From a virus, in the IMG/VR virus record IMGVR_UViG_3300043436_001700, positions 1 through 24,209 of that record: a stretch of DNA of 24,209 bases. One strand, written 5' to 3'. Shown piece by piece: positions 19,526 through 24,209 of this stretch (the first letter of the stretch is position 1; each line of letters starts with the position of its first letter). The position numbers were made by a program, and so were the translations under genes. Below the pieces are notes generated by a model. That model ran no database searches. It saw nothing but the letters and a program-made list of their open reading frames with translations, and had not been told where the DNA came from.

Positions 19526-19614
19526 TGGGGCAGACAGGATTCGAACCTGCAGATTCCTTTTTGGGTAGGTAATAACACCTTTAGTTTGCGTCTCACCAAT
19601 TCCGCCACTACCCC
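19526..19614 (-). tRNA. tRNA (class II, long variable region), anticodon unresolved
   Basis: On the minus strand GGGGTAG and CTGCCCC form a 7-bp acceptor with discriminator A. The D-arm is GCGG..GGTGAGA..CGC. The T-arm is GCAGG, loop TTCGAAT, CCTGT. At 89 nt it has Leu/Ser-like size and a D-arm like tRNA-Leu. The 37 bases between D-arm and T-arm do not give a normal 5-bp stem with 7-base loop and U33. The best stem is AGGT/ACCT around GTTATT (6-base loop). The isotype is therefore not assigned. It shares GTAGTGGCGGAA with the tRNA-like gene at 19888-20032. CCA is not encoded. Confidence 0.72.
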
Positions 19615-19619
19615 ATGTT

Positions 19620-19887: not shown

Positions 19888-20032
19888 ATGCGTAGACGGG
19901 ACTCGAACCCGCACCGCTTCCACACTTCTGCGCTTAAACCTTTTTTGTTTAACGTGAGGTTCGGATATACCTCATTACAGTTTTTTCGCGTCTACCACGT
20001 CAGGGACATCCCTAACCTTCCGCCACTACGCA
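19888..20032 (-). ncRNA. 144-nt tRNA-like gene with enlarged D-loop and extra hairpins
   Basis: On the minus strand TGCGTAG and CTACGCA form a 7-bp acceptor, and GCGGG, TTCGAGT, CCCGT a canonical T-arm. The D-arm keeps GCGGAA and GGTAGACGC but its loop carries an extra hairpin (AGGGA, TG, TCCCT). Between D-arm and T-arm are about 75 bases instead of 20-40. They include TGAGGT/ACCTCA with an 8-base loop and TTAAAC/GTTTAA with a 7-base loop. No U33-anticodon loop is evident. The gene resembles the 19526-19614 tRNA at both ends, so it may be its enlarged paralog. It has a promoter-like TAnnTTTG 13 bases upstream. A decoding role is doubtful. It is too short and lacks a tag frame to be a tmRNA. 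Confidence 0.65.
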
Positions 20033-20045
20033 TTCAATTATAGTA

Positions 20046-20537: not shown

Positions 20538-20545
20538 CAAATATA
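20538..20545 (-). promoter_or_regulatory. Promoter -7 element TATATTTG of the HNH gene, leaderless
   Basis: Minus-strand TATATTTG, then CGAC and ATG. It shares the 13-mer TATATTTGCGACA with the groEL promoter. It is the first leftward promoter at the edge of the divergent region. An ATGTT/AACAT inverted repeat lies just upstream (20553-20572). Confidence 0.62.
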
Positions 20546-20874
20546 TACCTAAATGTTGGAAAATGCTAACATTTCTTTAGATTTTAATGGAATGTGCTGT
20601 TAAGTTTGTAGCAGTGACGCGGAATTGAGCGAATTTAGTGTTGGAATGTTGGAAAATTTCTCTATATCTCTCTATATATAAATATATATATACTCTTTTT
20701 TTATATAGTTGTATTTATACTTATTTCTTAACATCTTAACACTAAAGTAGTATAAAGTACTGTAATATAGATAGTTATAGAATGCTGTCTCATCAAAATC
20801 TAAAGAAAACGCAGCACTATTTCGTGAATGTCAGCACTATTTTGATGGTTTTGTGTGTTGGAGTTCGGTATAAT

Positions 20875-20931
20875 CCCCCCATTTGACGCAACCGACCCTC
20901 AACGGAAAGTCATTTCATTTTCGATGGGGGG
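20875..20931. repeat. C6/G6 inverted repeat in the divergent region
   Basis: CCCCCCAT at 20875-20882 pairs perfectly with ATGGGGGG at 20924-20931 across 41 bases. It stands out in a very AT-rich setting. The loop contains a smaller GAC/GTC pairing. Not a terminator, as no T-tract follows. Confidence 0.7.
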
Positions 20932-21126
20932 TGTTACGTTTTGGAAAATTACTTCAAAACTTTTGGCTTTTTATGTTGGCATGATGATATGATATGATAT
21001 TAAATTATATTAAATAGTATTTAATTAGTTCGCGTTTCTTTTGTTGGTATAAATATTATTTTGTTACGTGACGTTATTTAATTTTATACTGTTAGTAATT
21101 TAACCGCATCCAGTATTTAAAGTTTA

Positions 21127-21155
21127 ATTCTATTCTATTCTATTCTATTCTATTT
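21127..21155. repeat. TATTC tandem repeat
   Basis: ATTC followed by four exact TATTC units (21131-21150) and a TATTT variant. Short tandem repeat in noncoding DNA, liable to slippage. Confidence 0.85.
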
Positions 21156-21406
21156 AACATGATCATGTTACATTCAATTACTTTGCACCAAATTATAAAA
21201 CGTTTCTTTTTTTGCCTTGTGTCACTTCGTGCGGTTATTACTTCACCAATTCACCCGAAAATAAAAAACTTTACAAAAAATAATATCAATTCACTAACTA
21301 TCTGAATATCAATACATTACACTTTACTTCTATATACAGGTACTTACTTCGATCTAAGTATAAACACTTAATTTTATATCAAAAGTTTAAAAAAGTTTAA
21401 ATAAAG

Positions 21407-21437
21407 TTTGCACAAGTAAAAACAATACGTATCTTTG
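21407..21437 (+). promoter_or_regulatory. Strong Bacteroidota promoter TTTG-N19-TATCTTTG for the rightward genes
   Basis: TTTG at 21407-21410, exactly 19 bases, then TATCTTTG at 21430-21437. This is the full consensus of the primary sigma factor in Bacteroides. The -33 box lies in the third copy of an AAAGTTTA-type direct repeat (21381-21410). A two-codon frame (ATG TAT TAA) begins two bases after the -7 element. The main ATG is at 21483 after an A-rich leader. Confidence 0.8.
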
Positions 21438-21482
21438 TAATGTATTAACAAACAAACATTTTTAACAATTAAAACAAACAAA

Positions 21483-21749
21483 ATGAAAAAAGTAACACAA
21501 CAACAAGTTAAGGAAGTTAACAACCAGGTAAAAAATAAAATGTGCACATTAGGAGGTTGCATTAGTACAATTTTGGCAAATGCTGAAAAGGAAGATACCA
21601 ATAAGGAATTTATAAATTTCCTGGTTAAATGTAAAAAAGATAAAGATACCTATTCACTTCTAAATGAAGAATGTAAGCCGAACAAAAAAAGCGGTACTTA
21701 TAACCGTTACGCTACTTTGCAAGCGGTTGCAAGAATATTAAATAAATAG
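21483..21749 (+). CDS. Small protein (88 residues), first rightward gene
   Basis: Starts MKKVTQQQVKEVNNQVKNKM and ends YATLQAVARILNK. It is a basic, Lys/Asn-rich, probably helical protein with three Cys. No membrane segment. No family recognised. It is preceded by a consensus promoter and an A-rich leader lacking a Shine-Dalgarno sequence, normal for Bacteroidota. Because it is the first gene of the rightward transcript it may be expressed early. Its stop codon lies inside the acceptor-like stem of the tRNA-like element at 21743-21787. Confidence 0.82.
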   Translation: MKKVTQQQVKEVNNQVKNKMCTLGGCISTILANAEKEDTNKEFINFLVKCKKDKDTYSLLNEECKPNKKSGTYNRYATLQAVARILNK

Positions 21750-21787
21750 TACGGTATAAAGTGCGGTTCGATTCCGCACCTATTTAC
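21743..21787 (+). ncRNA. Miniature tRNA-like element A (acceptor plus T-arm, no anticodon arm)
   Basis: TAAATAG (21743-21749) pairs perfectly with CTATTTA (21780-21786). Between them are an 11-base linker TACGGTATAAA and a T-arm: GTGCGG, loop TTCGATT, CCGCAC. The loop is the canonical T-loop. The linker has GGTA, as in a D-loop, but there is no D-stem or anticodon arm. The TAG of the upstream gene is the end of the 5' strand. The remaining base at 21787 would be the discriminator. It may be a processed small RNA or a 3'-end processing signal. Confidence 0.55.
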
Positions 21788-22137
21788 AAATTGCTTGATA
21801 TTATTTTGTTGCAAGCTTAAAAATTAACAAAAAATTGATTAAATAGTTTTTTTATACGGTTGCACCTAGTGAATTGTAAATAAAAACAAAGTTTTTTCAA
21901 GGCTTAAAAACGTTGCTCCTGGATAGAACGTTTTTGTATAGGCACATTCTTTGACGTATTGATAAGACTATAAATTAACGCGGTTAGTCACACGCAGTCT
22001 ACTGGAGTAAGTATAAAGACTCTCCGAAGGTAGGGCATATTGTACATTCTCAAATGGCAATTGTCAAAACGTACATTCAAAGGGTGAGCAATGTAACGGA
22101 ATAAAAAGAGGGCATACAGTTTAACGTGGTATGCAAA
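21788..22137 (+). ncRNA. Noncoding transcribed spacer with several small hairpins
   Basis: About 350 bases without a convincing gene. Seen: a block at 21834-21885 sharing TTAAATAG, TACGGT and GCACCTA with element A in the same order; hairpin 21906-21935; GACTA/TAGTC and AGTCT/AGACT pairings near 21966-22030; GTACATTC twice (22053 and 22074 areas); a near-palindrome TGGCAATTGTCA; and hairpin GCATAC/GTATGC at 22112-22134. The run of local structure suggests a structured RNA, but no known family is recognised. Confidence 0.4.
21906..21935 (+). terminator. Perfect 9-bp hairpin, possible terminator
   Basis: AAAAACGTT and AACGTTTTT pair across a 12-base loop. The T5 run is part of the stem and is followed by GTATA, so termination could be weak; it would separate the first rightward gene and element A from downstream genes. 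Confidence 0.45.
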
Positions 22138-22187
22138 CAAGTACGAAAATATGGTATTGAAATAACGTTCGAATCGTTACGTACTTG
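22138..22187 (+). ncRNA. Miniature tRNA-like element B (acceptor plus T-arm, no anticodon arm)
   Basis: CAAGTACG (22138-22145) pairs perfectly over 8 bp with CGTACTTG (22180-22187). The 3' strand follows directly on a T-arm: TAACG, loop TTCGAAT, CGTTA (22163-22179). The linker of 17 bases contains TATGGTATT, with the GGTAT shared by element A. A GCATAC/GTATGC hairpin ends three bases before the acceptor. The next gene starts 23 bases after the element. The geometry, with the 12-bp coaxial acceptor/T-arm typical of tRNA, is hard to explain by chance. Function unknown. Confidence 0.65.
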
Positions 22188-22209
22188 CTAACTAATTAAA
22201 CAAACAAAG

Positions 22210-22365
22210 ATGAGAACAATCACATTAATTTTCTTACTATTAGCAATGTTATGCTTATTAGTAATGTTAACGAGTAGCGTTAATTTAGGTCGTATTTACG
22301 CGGGGTTATTTGCACTAAGTATGTTGGGTGCAATAGTATCAATAATTTCAATCAAACTAAGATGA
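22210..22365 (+). CDS. Tiny membrane protein with two predicted spans (51 residues)
   Basis: Starts MRTITLIFLLLAMLCLLVML and ends in a second hydrophobic segment (LFALSMLGAIVSIISIK). It is preceded by AATTAAACAAACAAAG, nearly the same leader as before the 88-residue gene. The stop overlaps the next start (ATGA). Small phage membrane proteins can act in superinfection exclusion or lysis control; here there is no motif to choose between these. Confidence 0.65.
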   Translation: MRTITLIFLLLAMLCLLVMLTSSVNLGRIYAGLFALSMLGAIVSIISIKLR

Positions 22366-22448
22366 AAAGACAGGCATCAATTGGCGTACTTTACGCATAT
22401 ACTATGGCGGTTATAGTATTATTATTAATAATTTTTAAAATTAAATAA
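22362..22448 (+). CDS. Tiny membrane protein (28 residues)
   Basis: Reads MKRQASIGVLYAYTMAVIVL and ends LLLIIFKIK: a basic N-terminus and one membrane span of about 20 residues. The start overlaps the previous stop (ATGA). The short length makes it less certain, but the coupled start and the repeat of the same layout in neighbours support it. Confidence 0.5.
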   Translation: MKRQASIGVLYAYTMAVIVLLLIIFKIK

Positions 22449-22449
22449 G

Positions 22450-22530
22450 ATGAAAAGAGAACGTATTGAAATGATTATTGTGGCGGTCGTAGCACTTGCC
22501 GCATTCGTATTAAGTGGAATTTATAGATAA
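22450..22530 (+). CDS. Tiny membrane protein (26 residues)
   Basis: Reads MKRERIEMIIVAVVALAAFV and ends LSGIYR: basic N-terminus and one membrane span. The start is one base after the previous stop (TAAGATG). Third in a row of small hydrophobic peptides. Confidence 0.5.
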   Translation: MKRERIEMIIVAVVALAAFVLSGIYR

Positions 22531-22554
22531 CAAAGAAGTTTTAATTGTTAACAA

Positions 22555-22576
22555 GGGGTGGCAATAGGGTCACCCC
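22555..22576 (+). other. GC-rich hairpin before the secreted-peptide gene
   Basis: GGGGTG and CACCCC pair across a 10-base loop, 16 bases before the ATG at 22593. No T-tract follows, so it may affect translation or RNA stability rather than termination. Confidence 0.45.
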
Positions 22577-22592
22577 ATTAAAATCAAATCAA

Positions 22593-22757
22593 ATGAAATC
22601 AATTTTAGTATTAATGTTATTGATCGCGAACGTATCAATGGCAACGCCACCGAGTGGCTACAATTACAAGCGACACTACAAGAAGTGTCAAAGAGTGAAG
22701 AGAATGAATAGAGTGTTTAATCTAAATGGGTGCAAATACCACACGCAAAGAATATGA
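22593..22757 (+). CDS. Small secreted basic peptide
   Basis: 54 residues from MKSILVLMLLIANVSMATPP; a longer frame from a TTG at 22545 runs through the hairpin and is rejected. The first 17 residues form a clean signal peptide with cleavage after SMA. The mature part is about 37 residues and very basic, with two Cys (KKCQRV and NGCKYH) that could form a disulfide. Export to the periplasm or outside is likely. The start of the next gene overlaps its stop. Function unknown. Confidence 0.65.
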   Translation: MKSILVLMLLIANVSMATPPSGYNYKRHYKKCQRVKRMNRVFNLNGCKYHTQRI

Positions 22758-23074
22758 GCTACTTAATCAAAACATACTTCGATGTATACGAAGACGACTA
22801 CAACGGAGGCGAAGGCAAACTTGTTAGTCACTGGTCGCACGAATCAGAACATGATGCTATTGAATCGGCATTGCAACAACACTTTGGGCAAGTAGGTTTG
22901 TCATACGATGTCAACTTCTTACTTGAAGATGACGGAAATCGATGGTACTCCTGGACGGTAGACGAAGACTGTTGCGAAGCAAACGAAAAGGAAATTGAAC
23001 AATGGAAGCAAGGCAAGATGCAATTGTACTCAATGCATGCAAGTATTAATGTATATAAATTAGAACAGATATGA
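22754..23074 (+). CDS. Acidic conserved phage protein of unknown function
   Basis: 106 residues from MSYLIKTYFDVYEDDYNGGE (ATGA overlap with the upstream gene). It is acidic and aromatic-rich, with a pattern SHWSHESEHDAIESALQQHF, then WYSWTVDEDCCEAN. The layout suggests a small alpha/beta domain. Its stop overlaps the next start. No membrane segment. No family recognised. Confidence 0.78.
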   Translation: MSYLIKTYFDVYEDDYNGGEGKLVSHWSHESEHDAIESALQQHFGQVGLSYDVNFLLEDDGNRWYSWTVDEDCCEANEKEIEQWKQGKMQLYSMHASINVYKLEQI

Positions 23075-23859
23075 AAAAAGTATTCTCAAACAACGAATTG
23101 CCACACGTATGGGCGCATGGCACACAAGAAGAAGGTCGTAATCCTCAAAATAGTTTCTTCTTTAATGGTAGAACAATCTATAGTTACGGATATCATTTCC
23201 CGATAGCAGTTAGAATGGACGATAATGTGTATCTATTAACTACACGCGGATACAGTAATACTACGAGTAAACATATAGGTAAAGTATTGTGGTCGATACC
23301 AACTGGGGCAAAGATTATACGATGCTCTGACCCAAGCATTCAATACAATGAAAGTAGCATGAACCAATGGGACGTTGATATCAATACGCAATTGGATAAG
23401 ATGTCACGAGCAAAGAAACCTGCTACGTATGTCAATGAAATACTAAGATTAGTAGCACAAGCACAAGACTATTGTGACTACTTCGGTAAAGATAACAGAC
23501 TGTCGCACTATGCAACGATGGACTTCGGAGTAAAGGCTGACGAGTTGAAAGCTATCAACAAAGCTAAGGCTGATGCGGATAAGAAAGAGAATGCAGAACG
23601 ATTAGCTAAGTGGCGTAACTTCGAGACCAATGACCTATGGCTGAAAGGTCACAACAAGGATACGTACCTACGTAGCGACGGCGAGACGGTTACTACATCG
23701 CGAGGTATCAAGCTACCTATTGATGTGTACCGTAGATACAAATCAATGCTACCTAATTTAGGTCGTGAGGTATTAGGATACAGAGTTAATTCAGTAACAG
23801 ATAAGTATGTGACTATAGGATGTCACAACATTAGTATTAAAGAAATCAATAGCATATGA
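23071..23859 (+). CDS. Conserved phage protein (DUF8033-like)
   Basis: 262 residues. The N-terminal half has the family pattern NNELPHVWAHGTQEEGRN, then FFFNGRTIYSYGYHFPIAV and YLLTTRGYSNTTSKH. I recall this from many phages and plasmids under DUF8033. The middle and C-terminal half (about 110-190) are helical and charged, and the end (VLGYRVNSVTDKYVTIGCHN) is beta-rich. Function is not established. It starts with an ATGA overlap and ends with another into the next gene, so the three genes 22754-24209 are coupled. Confidence 0.8.
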   Translation: MKKVFSNNELPHVWAHGTQEEGRNPQNSFFFNGRTIYSYGYHFPIAVRMDDNVYLLTTRGYSNTTSKHIGKVLWSIPTGAKIIRCSDPSIQYNESSMNQWDVDINTQLDKMSRAKKPATYVNEILRLVAQAQDYCDYFGKDNRLSHYATMDFGVKADELKAINKAKADADKKENAERLAKWRNFETNDLWLKGHNKDTYLRSDGETVTTSRGIKLPIDVYRRYKSMLPNLGREVLGYRVNSVTDKYVTIGCHNISIKEINSI

Positions 23860-24209
23860 TATTTAAGATAGACGACACCCTCCAGGTTATACGCCTGGGG
23901 GTTACTTCAAACGATAAGATTGAAGCCAACAGTAAGCGACCGATTGTACAGACGTACACGTTTAGTCGCAAACAATTCGAGATGATAGCTAACAATGACG
24001 AACGTAACATGAGGTCGTTCTTTAATGCAGCTGATAGCAATTGCCTTGACTGTCCGTTTAATTCATTCGGCAAATGTTATACGCATAAGTTCAACCAATA
24101 CGTAGGGTTCATATCGATGCTTAAGCGTATAGCTAAGATGTACGCAACATGGGACGATGTGCCTAACTATGAAGCATCGTTCGCCATCATCATTCGTGAA
24201 ATTGCTCAA
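23856..24209 (+). CDS. Conserved phage protein with a Cys cluster, cut by window end
   Basis: 118 codons open to the right edge, starting MIFKIDDTLQVIRLGVTSND. After a beta-rich start there is TYTFSRKQFEMIANNDERN, then a Cys cluster NCLDCPFNSFGKCYTHKF, and QYVGFISMLKRIAKMY. The C-x-x-C, C, H spacing suggests a zinc or iron-sulfur site. I recall this as a small family in phages (DUF7227-like). The C-terminus lies outside the window. It is coupled to the previous gene (ATGA). Confidence 0.75.
   Translation, partial: MIFKIDDTLQVIRLGVTSNDKIEANSKRPIVQTYTFSRKQFEMIANNDERNMRSFFNAADSNCLDCPFNSFGKCYTHKFNQYVGFISMLKRIAKMYATWDDVPNYEASFAIIIREIAQ

Follow-up and report, generated by a model that had tools for sequence, protein, structure and literature searches.

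Can a transfer RNA (tRNA) stripped of its anticodon arm serve a phage as a mark for cutting transcripts? The question is raised by a short element, designated E1, at positions 22138 to 22187 of the IMG/VR virus record IMGVR_UViG_3300043436_001700; the whole 24,209-nucleotide (nt) stretch that was analysed (24.2 kb) is referred to below as the window. The original prediction, made from the letters alone, held E1 to be an anticodon-less tRNA-like RNA, a reading that is supported by compensatory changes in both stems and by recovery of E1 with a model built from elements of other phages. The window contains a second element, E2, and both belong to a class that recurs in other phages at gene boundaries. 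We consider it probable, at roughly 60% on the sequence comparisons described here, that elements of this class punctuate phage transcripts through ribonuclease P (RNase P) and RNase Z, functionally like t-elements and mascRNA.

22138-22187, plus strand: E1, minimal tRNA-like element, 22 nt upstream of the ATG at 22210
21743-21786, plus strand: E2, second minimal tRNA-like element, with acceptor TAAATAG/CTATTTA overlapping the stop codon of the open reading frame (ORF) at 21483-21749

We observed that the stems and loop attributed to E1 are exact. The 8-base-pair (bp) acceptor pairs CAAGTACG (22138-22145) with CGTACTTG (22180-22187), and its 5' strand is followed by a 17-nt linker, AAAATATGGTATTGAAA (22146-22162), that contains UAUGGUA; the 5-bp T-stem, TAACG (22163-22167) with CGTTA (22175-22179), closes the loop TTCGAAT (UUCGAAU in RNA; 22168-22174). 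E2, which was found with the same descriptor and is a more typical copy of the class than E1, has the linker UACGGUAUAAA (TACGGTATAAA as DNA), a 6-bp T-stem, GTGCGG/CCGCAC, and the loop TTCGATT (UUCGAUU). There is indeed no room for an anticodon arm, the linkers of the 2 elements being just 11-17 nt long, and both ARAGORN and Rfam are silent at either position. The first reading of the sequence had overlooked E2, as well as 2 longer, minus-strand tRNA-like elements that are described below. By chance, approximately 0.02 matches of this kind, with an acceptor of at least 8 bp, are expected per random window of the same composition, both strands included; a strict descriptor gave no match in 3 random versions of 1.65 Mb, as against approximately 10 distinct real ones.

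The compensatory changes that the original prediction had proposed looking for in related phages were found in the 4 E1 homologues (L084, L085, L086 and L234), which were identified from their gene neighbourhood or from the unchanged linker, and not from stem pairing. Over the 5 phages and 13 pairs of this alignment, 95.4% of cells are paired and 6 of the 13 pairs have changed on both sides, while the linker is invariant; no shuffle reached the observed pairing or covariation score, and registers that were slid along the alignment gave at most 35% pairing. The L084 homologue, for example, has the acceptor CAAGUGUA/UACACUUG and the T-stem CGCCG/CGGCA. E1 also behaves as a module, because the noncoding sequence upstream of it (21955-22135) is nearly identical in L084, whereas L085, L086 and L234 have unrelated sequence in its place. 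E2 has a counterpart in L084 and L090, where the orthologous upstream ORF ends, with stems that are unrelated in sequence (AGGCGTC/GACGCCT, CCTTG/CAAGG).

An Infernal search, also suggested at the outset, was carried out with R1, a covariance model to which other phages and contigs contributed 19 elements and this phage none. R1 matched both elements of the window at full length, E2 with 48.6 bits (E=7.5e-12) and E1 with E=0.002, and no other full-length match in the window fell below E=0.2. The copies of the class were gathered by scanning viral and bacterial contigs with patterns and then applying a pairing filter; random sequence yields 1-2 matches to pattern and pairing per ~3.8 Mb, and real contigs many more. 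They share an architecture of 40-50 nt in which a coaxial acceptor and T helix of ~12 bp (11-13 bp in all, compared with 12 in tRNA) is joined to a U8-A9-Y-G18-G19-U-A core, with neither D-stem nor anticodon arm. UAUGGUA is the sequence on which the linkers converge; in a tRNA minus its D-stem it would correspond to U8-A9, a pyrimidine, G18-G19, U and A21, the assignment to tRNA positions being our inference. It should be noted that the E1 homologues, the gene context and the test on the window are free of selection by pattern or pairing; covariation in a further alignment (A5), whose rows had been picked for their pairing, is left out of the evidence.

Carrier genomes mostly have just one or two copies. 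One contig of 31.7 kb (G001) has approximately 10, and 2 other, unrelated virus contigs have 3 to 4. In the Streptococcus prophages Javan235 (S. gallolyticus UCN34), Javan199 and Javan414 and in a further virus contig (L292), an element with different stem letters lies close to one shared junction, upstream of a late regulator.

The elements are strongly associated with gene boundaries. Intergenic copies numbered 34 of 42, versus 8.9 expected, and 34 was reached in none of 200,000 simulations; the next ORF is on the same strand in 36 of 39 copies. In the usual layout a stop codon is met by an element that begins at -8 to +19 nt from it, and a leader of 22-43 nt then precedes an ATG. In other cases (E1, L115, L079, L299, L303 and Streptococcus) the element adjoins a long noncoding stretch, on its 3' or its 5' side. 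A similar leader follows the element at 2 stop-element-start junctions of L402, and the 3' flanks of the elements (CAA, CTA, TAA) occur on true tRNAs of the same loci too. In the window, the 2 elements bracket noncoding sequence as follows.

21483-21749, plus strand: 88-amino-acid ORF, with its stop codon within the E2 acceptor strand
21790-22135, plus strand: noncoding stretch between E2 and E1
22210-22365, plus strand: hydrophobic ORF of 51 amino acids, downstream of E1 and conserved along with it in L084 and L234

The 88-amino-acid ORF has no match in PHROG or Pfam. A 6-bp hairpin, GCATAC/GTATGC, stands at the end of the noncoding stretch and ends 3 nt 5' of E1. Folding of the whole stretch gave energies that were not significant (z of -0.72 for the window and +0.89 for L085), and no structure is claimed for it.

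Several further observations concern related loci. In the first 13 kb of G001 (L457; G001:C1:1-13000) the ~10 minimal elements lie between early genes, and in several cases a similar GCTGGNATCNTACT leader stands between element and ATG. In Streptococcus prophages there is a noncoding region upstream of the late regulator (L370, 1318-1636; L371, 1605-2244), with a possible long-range stem, AACCCGA/TCGGGTT, immediately 3' of the minimal element. Gut Bacteroidales contigs (L384, L407, L408, L440) contain a related family (GGACGnTATGGTAAAT..CGGGTTCGATTCCCG..) with an imperfect acceptor.

Since the anatomy of the elements and their placement at gene boundaries fit the job of a t-element, we propose the same role for them. 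E1 and E2 correspond to a tRNA cut down to the part that is read by RNase P and RNase Z: the coaxial acceptor/T-stem of ~12 bp, the canonical T-loop and a short linker with U8-A9 and the G18-G19 elbow contact are retained, and the D-stem and anticodon arm are gone. Such an element would be transcribed within polycistronic or noncoding-plus-coding phage transcripts, and would fold in the cell after the ribosome leaves the overlapping stop codon; that a terminating ribosome could delay folding, given this overlap, is speculation. Host RNase P would cleave 5' of the element, RNase Z or exonuclease trimming would act at its 3' side, and CCA may then be added, the transcript being punctuated as by a mitochondrial tRNA, presumably to the benefit of the phage. 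In the window, E2 would part the ORF at 21483-21749 from the noncoding RNA, E1 would part the noncoding RNA from the downstream mRNA, and the freed mRNA would begin ~22 nt before its AUG. Among the roles offered in the original prediction, a processing signal that frees the downstream mRNA thus appears to fit the gene-boundary placement best. More tentatively, and with a little more doubt than belief, we suggest that diverse phages evolved, convergently or by exchange, a dedicated RNA punctuation mark, with nothing left of the tRNA but the portion that RNase P and RNase Z recognise, in which overlap with the stop codon would couple translation termination to transcript cutting.

A number of observations weigh against punctuation by these enzymes. 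E. coli RNase P was reported to need a 3' CCA on a small model substrate (PMC5723415), and in phage T4 tRNA-Ser a CCA allowed better processing than UAA (PMC11143913). The elements are mostly without an encoded CCA. In Bacteroidota, however, tRNA genes often lack an encoded CCA as well. Nearest-neighbour folding favours an alternative inner hairpin in E1, by 3.3 kcal/mol (-12.9 versus -9.6), and we prefer the tRNA-like fold to this minimum-energy fold because of the covariation. The homologues are themselves imperfect: in that of L084, T-loop position 55 is C and one C-A mismatch is present, and those of L085 and L086 have one A-C acceptor mismatch each. The search patterns behind most copies prescribe part of the core, whose conservation is therefore in part a product of selection, as the stems are of the pairing filter. 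The elements are also rare in close relatives, one match below E=0.01 being found in 0.92 Mb around the terminase, and are therefore not essential. Among cellular genomes, R1 gave no match in the G021 family (Flavobacterium; 249 genomes), and only the seed genome was matched in the G020 class (245 genomes) and in the G017 class (198 genomes); scoring was confined to the best candidates, so these counts speak for rarity and not for absence.

The first alternative that we weigh is an element that acts in cis on stability or translation and is left uncut by tRNA enzymes, either a compact 3' hairpin that protects the upstream mRNA against exonucleases or a structured leader on the 5' side. The 11-13 stacked base pairs would suit such an element, as would a location directly behind stop codons and 20-40 nt ahead of start codons. 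The UUCRANN T-loop, the GG elbow and U8-A9 are not required of a generic hairpin, however, and neither is a split acceptor strand that is maintained by compensatory change; we regard this explanation as unlikely. About equally unlikely is the decoy that the original prediction had also offered, and for which we found no specific support: an element excised as a free, CCA-tailed RNA of 40-50 nt would act in trans as a sponge for RNase P, the CCA-adding enzyme, EF-Tu, tRNA-modifying enzymes or tRNA-cutting defence toxins. The features read by those enzymes are retained, and some phages have several copies per genome, but a decoy would not have to overlap stop codons or recur every few genes, and 34 of 42 copies are at gene boundaries; most carrier genomes have one or two copies only. 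Phages do carry tRNAs and integrate at tRNA 3' ends, and the longer RNAs of the window, E3 and E4, resemble tRNAs with altered middles, so that the elements might be relics of phage tRNAs with the middle deleted, or attachment-site copies of the 3' end of a host tRNA. This is very unlikely, since relics would not be expected to keep near-perfect acceptors through compensatory change or to sit on stop codons in many phages, and an attachment site would have neither a paired 5' acceptor strand nor multiple unlike copies. Coincidental pairing in an AT-rich intergenic region, for which one match per ~50 random windows might be invoked, is refuted by the covariation of the E1 homologues and by recovery of both elements of this one window with the independent model.

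We also compared E1 and E2 with established RNA classes. They have the acceptor stem and the T-arm with canonical T-loop of tRNA (RF00005), and lack its D-arm and anticodon arm; Rfam gave no match at either element at gathering or relaxed thresholds. As in t-elements, the tRNA-like fold is found at 5' or 3' gene ends, with many copies on stop codons; the homology to tRNA genes, with typical tRNA-like structure, was not found in E1 and E2. An intrinsic terminator was rejected, there being no U-run after E1 (CTAACTAATTAAAC) or E2 (CAAATTGCTTG). Transfer-messenger RNA (tmRNA; RF00023) was likewise rejected, with no match at E1 or E2 and no tag reading frame or pseudoknots found; its model gave a weak score of 11 bits in E3 only, on a 15-nt T-arm fragment. 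GOLLD and ROOL were rejected as the identity of the flanking noncoding RNA, neither having an Rfam match in any scanned locus.

The longer tRNA-like RNAs of the window each lie between 2 ORFs.

19888-20033, minus strand: E3, 146-nt tRNA-like RNA with perfect acceptor and T-arm and a leucine-type D-arm
19526-19615, minus strand: E4, 90-nt leucine-like tRNA-like RNA with perfect acceptor and T-arm and no standard anticodon arm

E3 has a hairpin inserted in the D-loop and no standard anticodon arm, and the hairpin recurs in L105 with a T-A to C-G change. E4 scored 36.9 bits with the Rfam tRNA model, and ARAGORN was silent; homologues of E3 and E4 with different middles occur in L090. We further noted, on the minus strand of L105 (~1190-530) and L107 (~450-90), a large, apparently structured noncoding RNA that ends in a U-run terminator and has no Rfam match except to tRNA; in L107 it contains one minimal tRNA-like element, at a place where L105 has 2 long tRNA-like domains.

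The window is of a Bacteroidota podophage type, with a terminase 64% identical to that of the uncultured podovirus MW202828 and ~44% identical to terminases of Flavobacterium elemo phages; no named phage showed DNA similarity to 21400-24209. About 900 bases at 20540-21480 are AT-rich, without clear genes and flanked by divergent gene blocks, and possibly contain promoters or a replication origin. By eye, an ORF at 766-1449 on the minus strand, between terminase and portal-like genes, resembles a GIY-YIG-type homing endonuclease.

If punctuation by RNase P and RNase Z is correct, the elements would form a new class of small structured phage RNA that tRNA finders and Rfam miss, would explain how some phages cut long transcripts with host enzymes alone, and would provide natural minimal substrates for the 2 enzymes and a link between phage noncoding RNAs and the tRNA-like ends that flank them. 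Bacterial viruses would then share the tRNA-punctuated gene expression known from mitochondria. The hypothesis that RNA processing is coupled to stop codons is testable, and the element occurs in named prophages of Streptococcus strains that have been sequenced, where it can be checked by RNA sequencing. In a literature search that mostly did not extend to subscription papers and preprints, so that an earlier description is possible, we found none of phage tRNA-like punctuation, of an anticodon-less tRNA-like RNA, or of RNase P or RNase Z with a T-arm in phage.

Comparison with known systems places the elements as follows. GOLLD and ROOL are phage RNAs with adjacent or linked tRNAs, which in GOLLD are sometimes within its linker (PMC12286853); phage noncoding RNA beside tRNAs is seen here too, with internal tRNA-like parts in L105 and L107. 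The tRNA-like domain of tmRNA similarly has an acceptor, a T-arm and a D-loop without D-stem. Bacterial RNase P cleaves model substrates of acceptor stem, T-stem and T-loop efficiently (PMC11143913), and the phage elements share these parts with the substrates of McClain, Guerrier-Takada and Altman, which were synthetic, whereas the elements are natural, keep the elbow GG in the linker and mostly have no CCA. Maturation of MALAT1 mascRNA and MEN-beta menRNA, tRNA-like elements downstream of noncoding RNA, needs RNase P (PMC11693755). E1 likewise sits after a noncoding stretch, but those are eukaryotic nuclear long noncoding RNAs with elements of other size and arms, and the phage elements separate coding genes too. 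Mitochondrial tRNAs between genes are cut sites of polycistronic RNA (PMC8601606) and are functional tRNAs, whereas the phage elements cannot decode. In plant mitochondria, RNase P and RNase Z define mRNA ends by cleaving t-elements, which lie at the 5' or 3' ends of genes and are CCA-tailed and not aminoacylated (PMC11658184); the phage elements, for which such cleavage is predicted, are likewise tRNA-like sequences at gene ends, and are smaller (40-50 nt), without D-stem and anticodon arm. By analogy, then, the phage element appears to act like a t-element or a punctuating tRNA, yet it is not a tRNA and is smaller than known t-elements.
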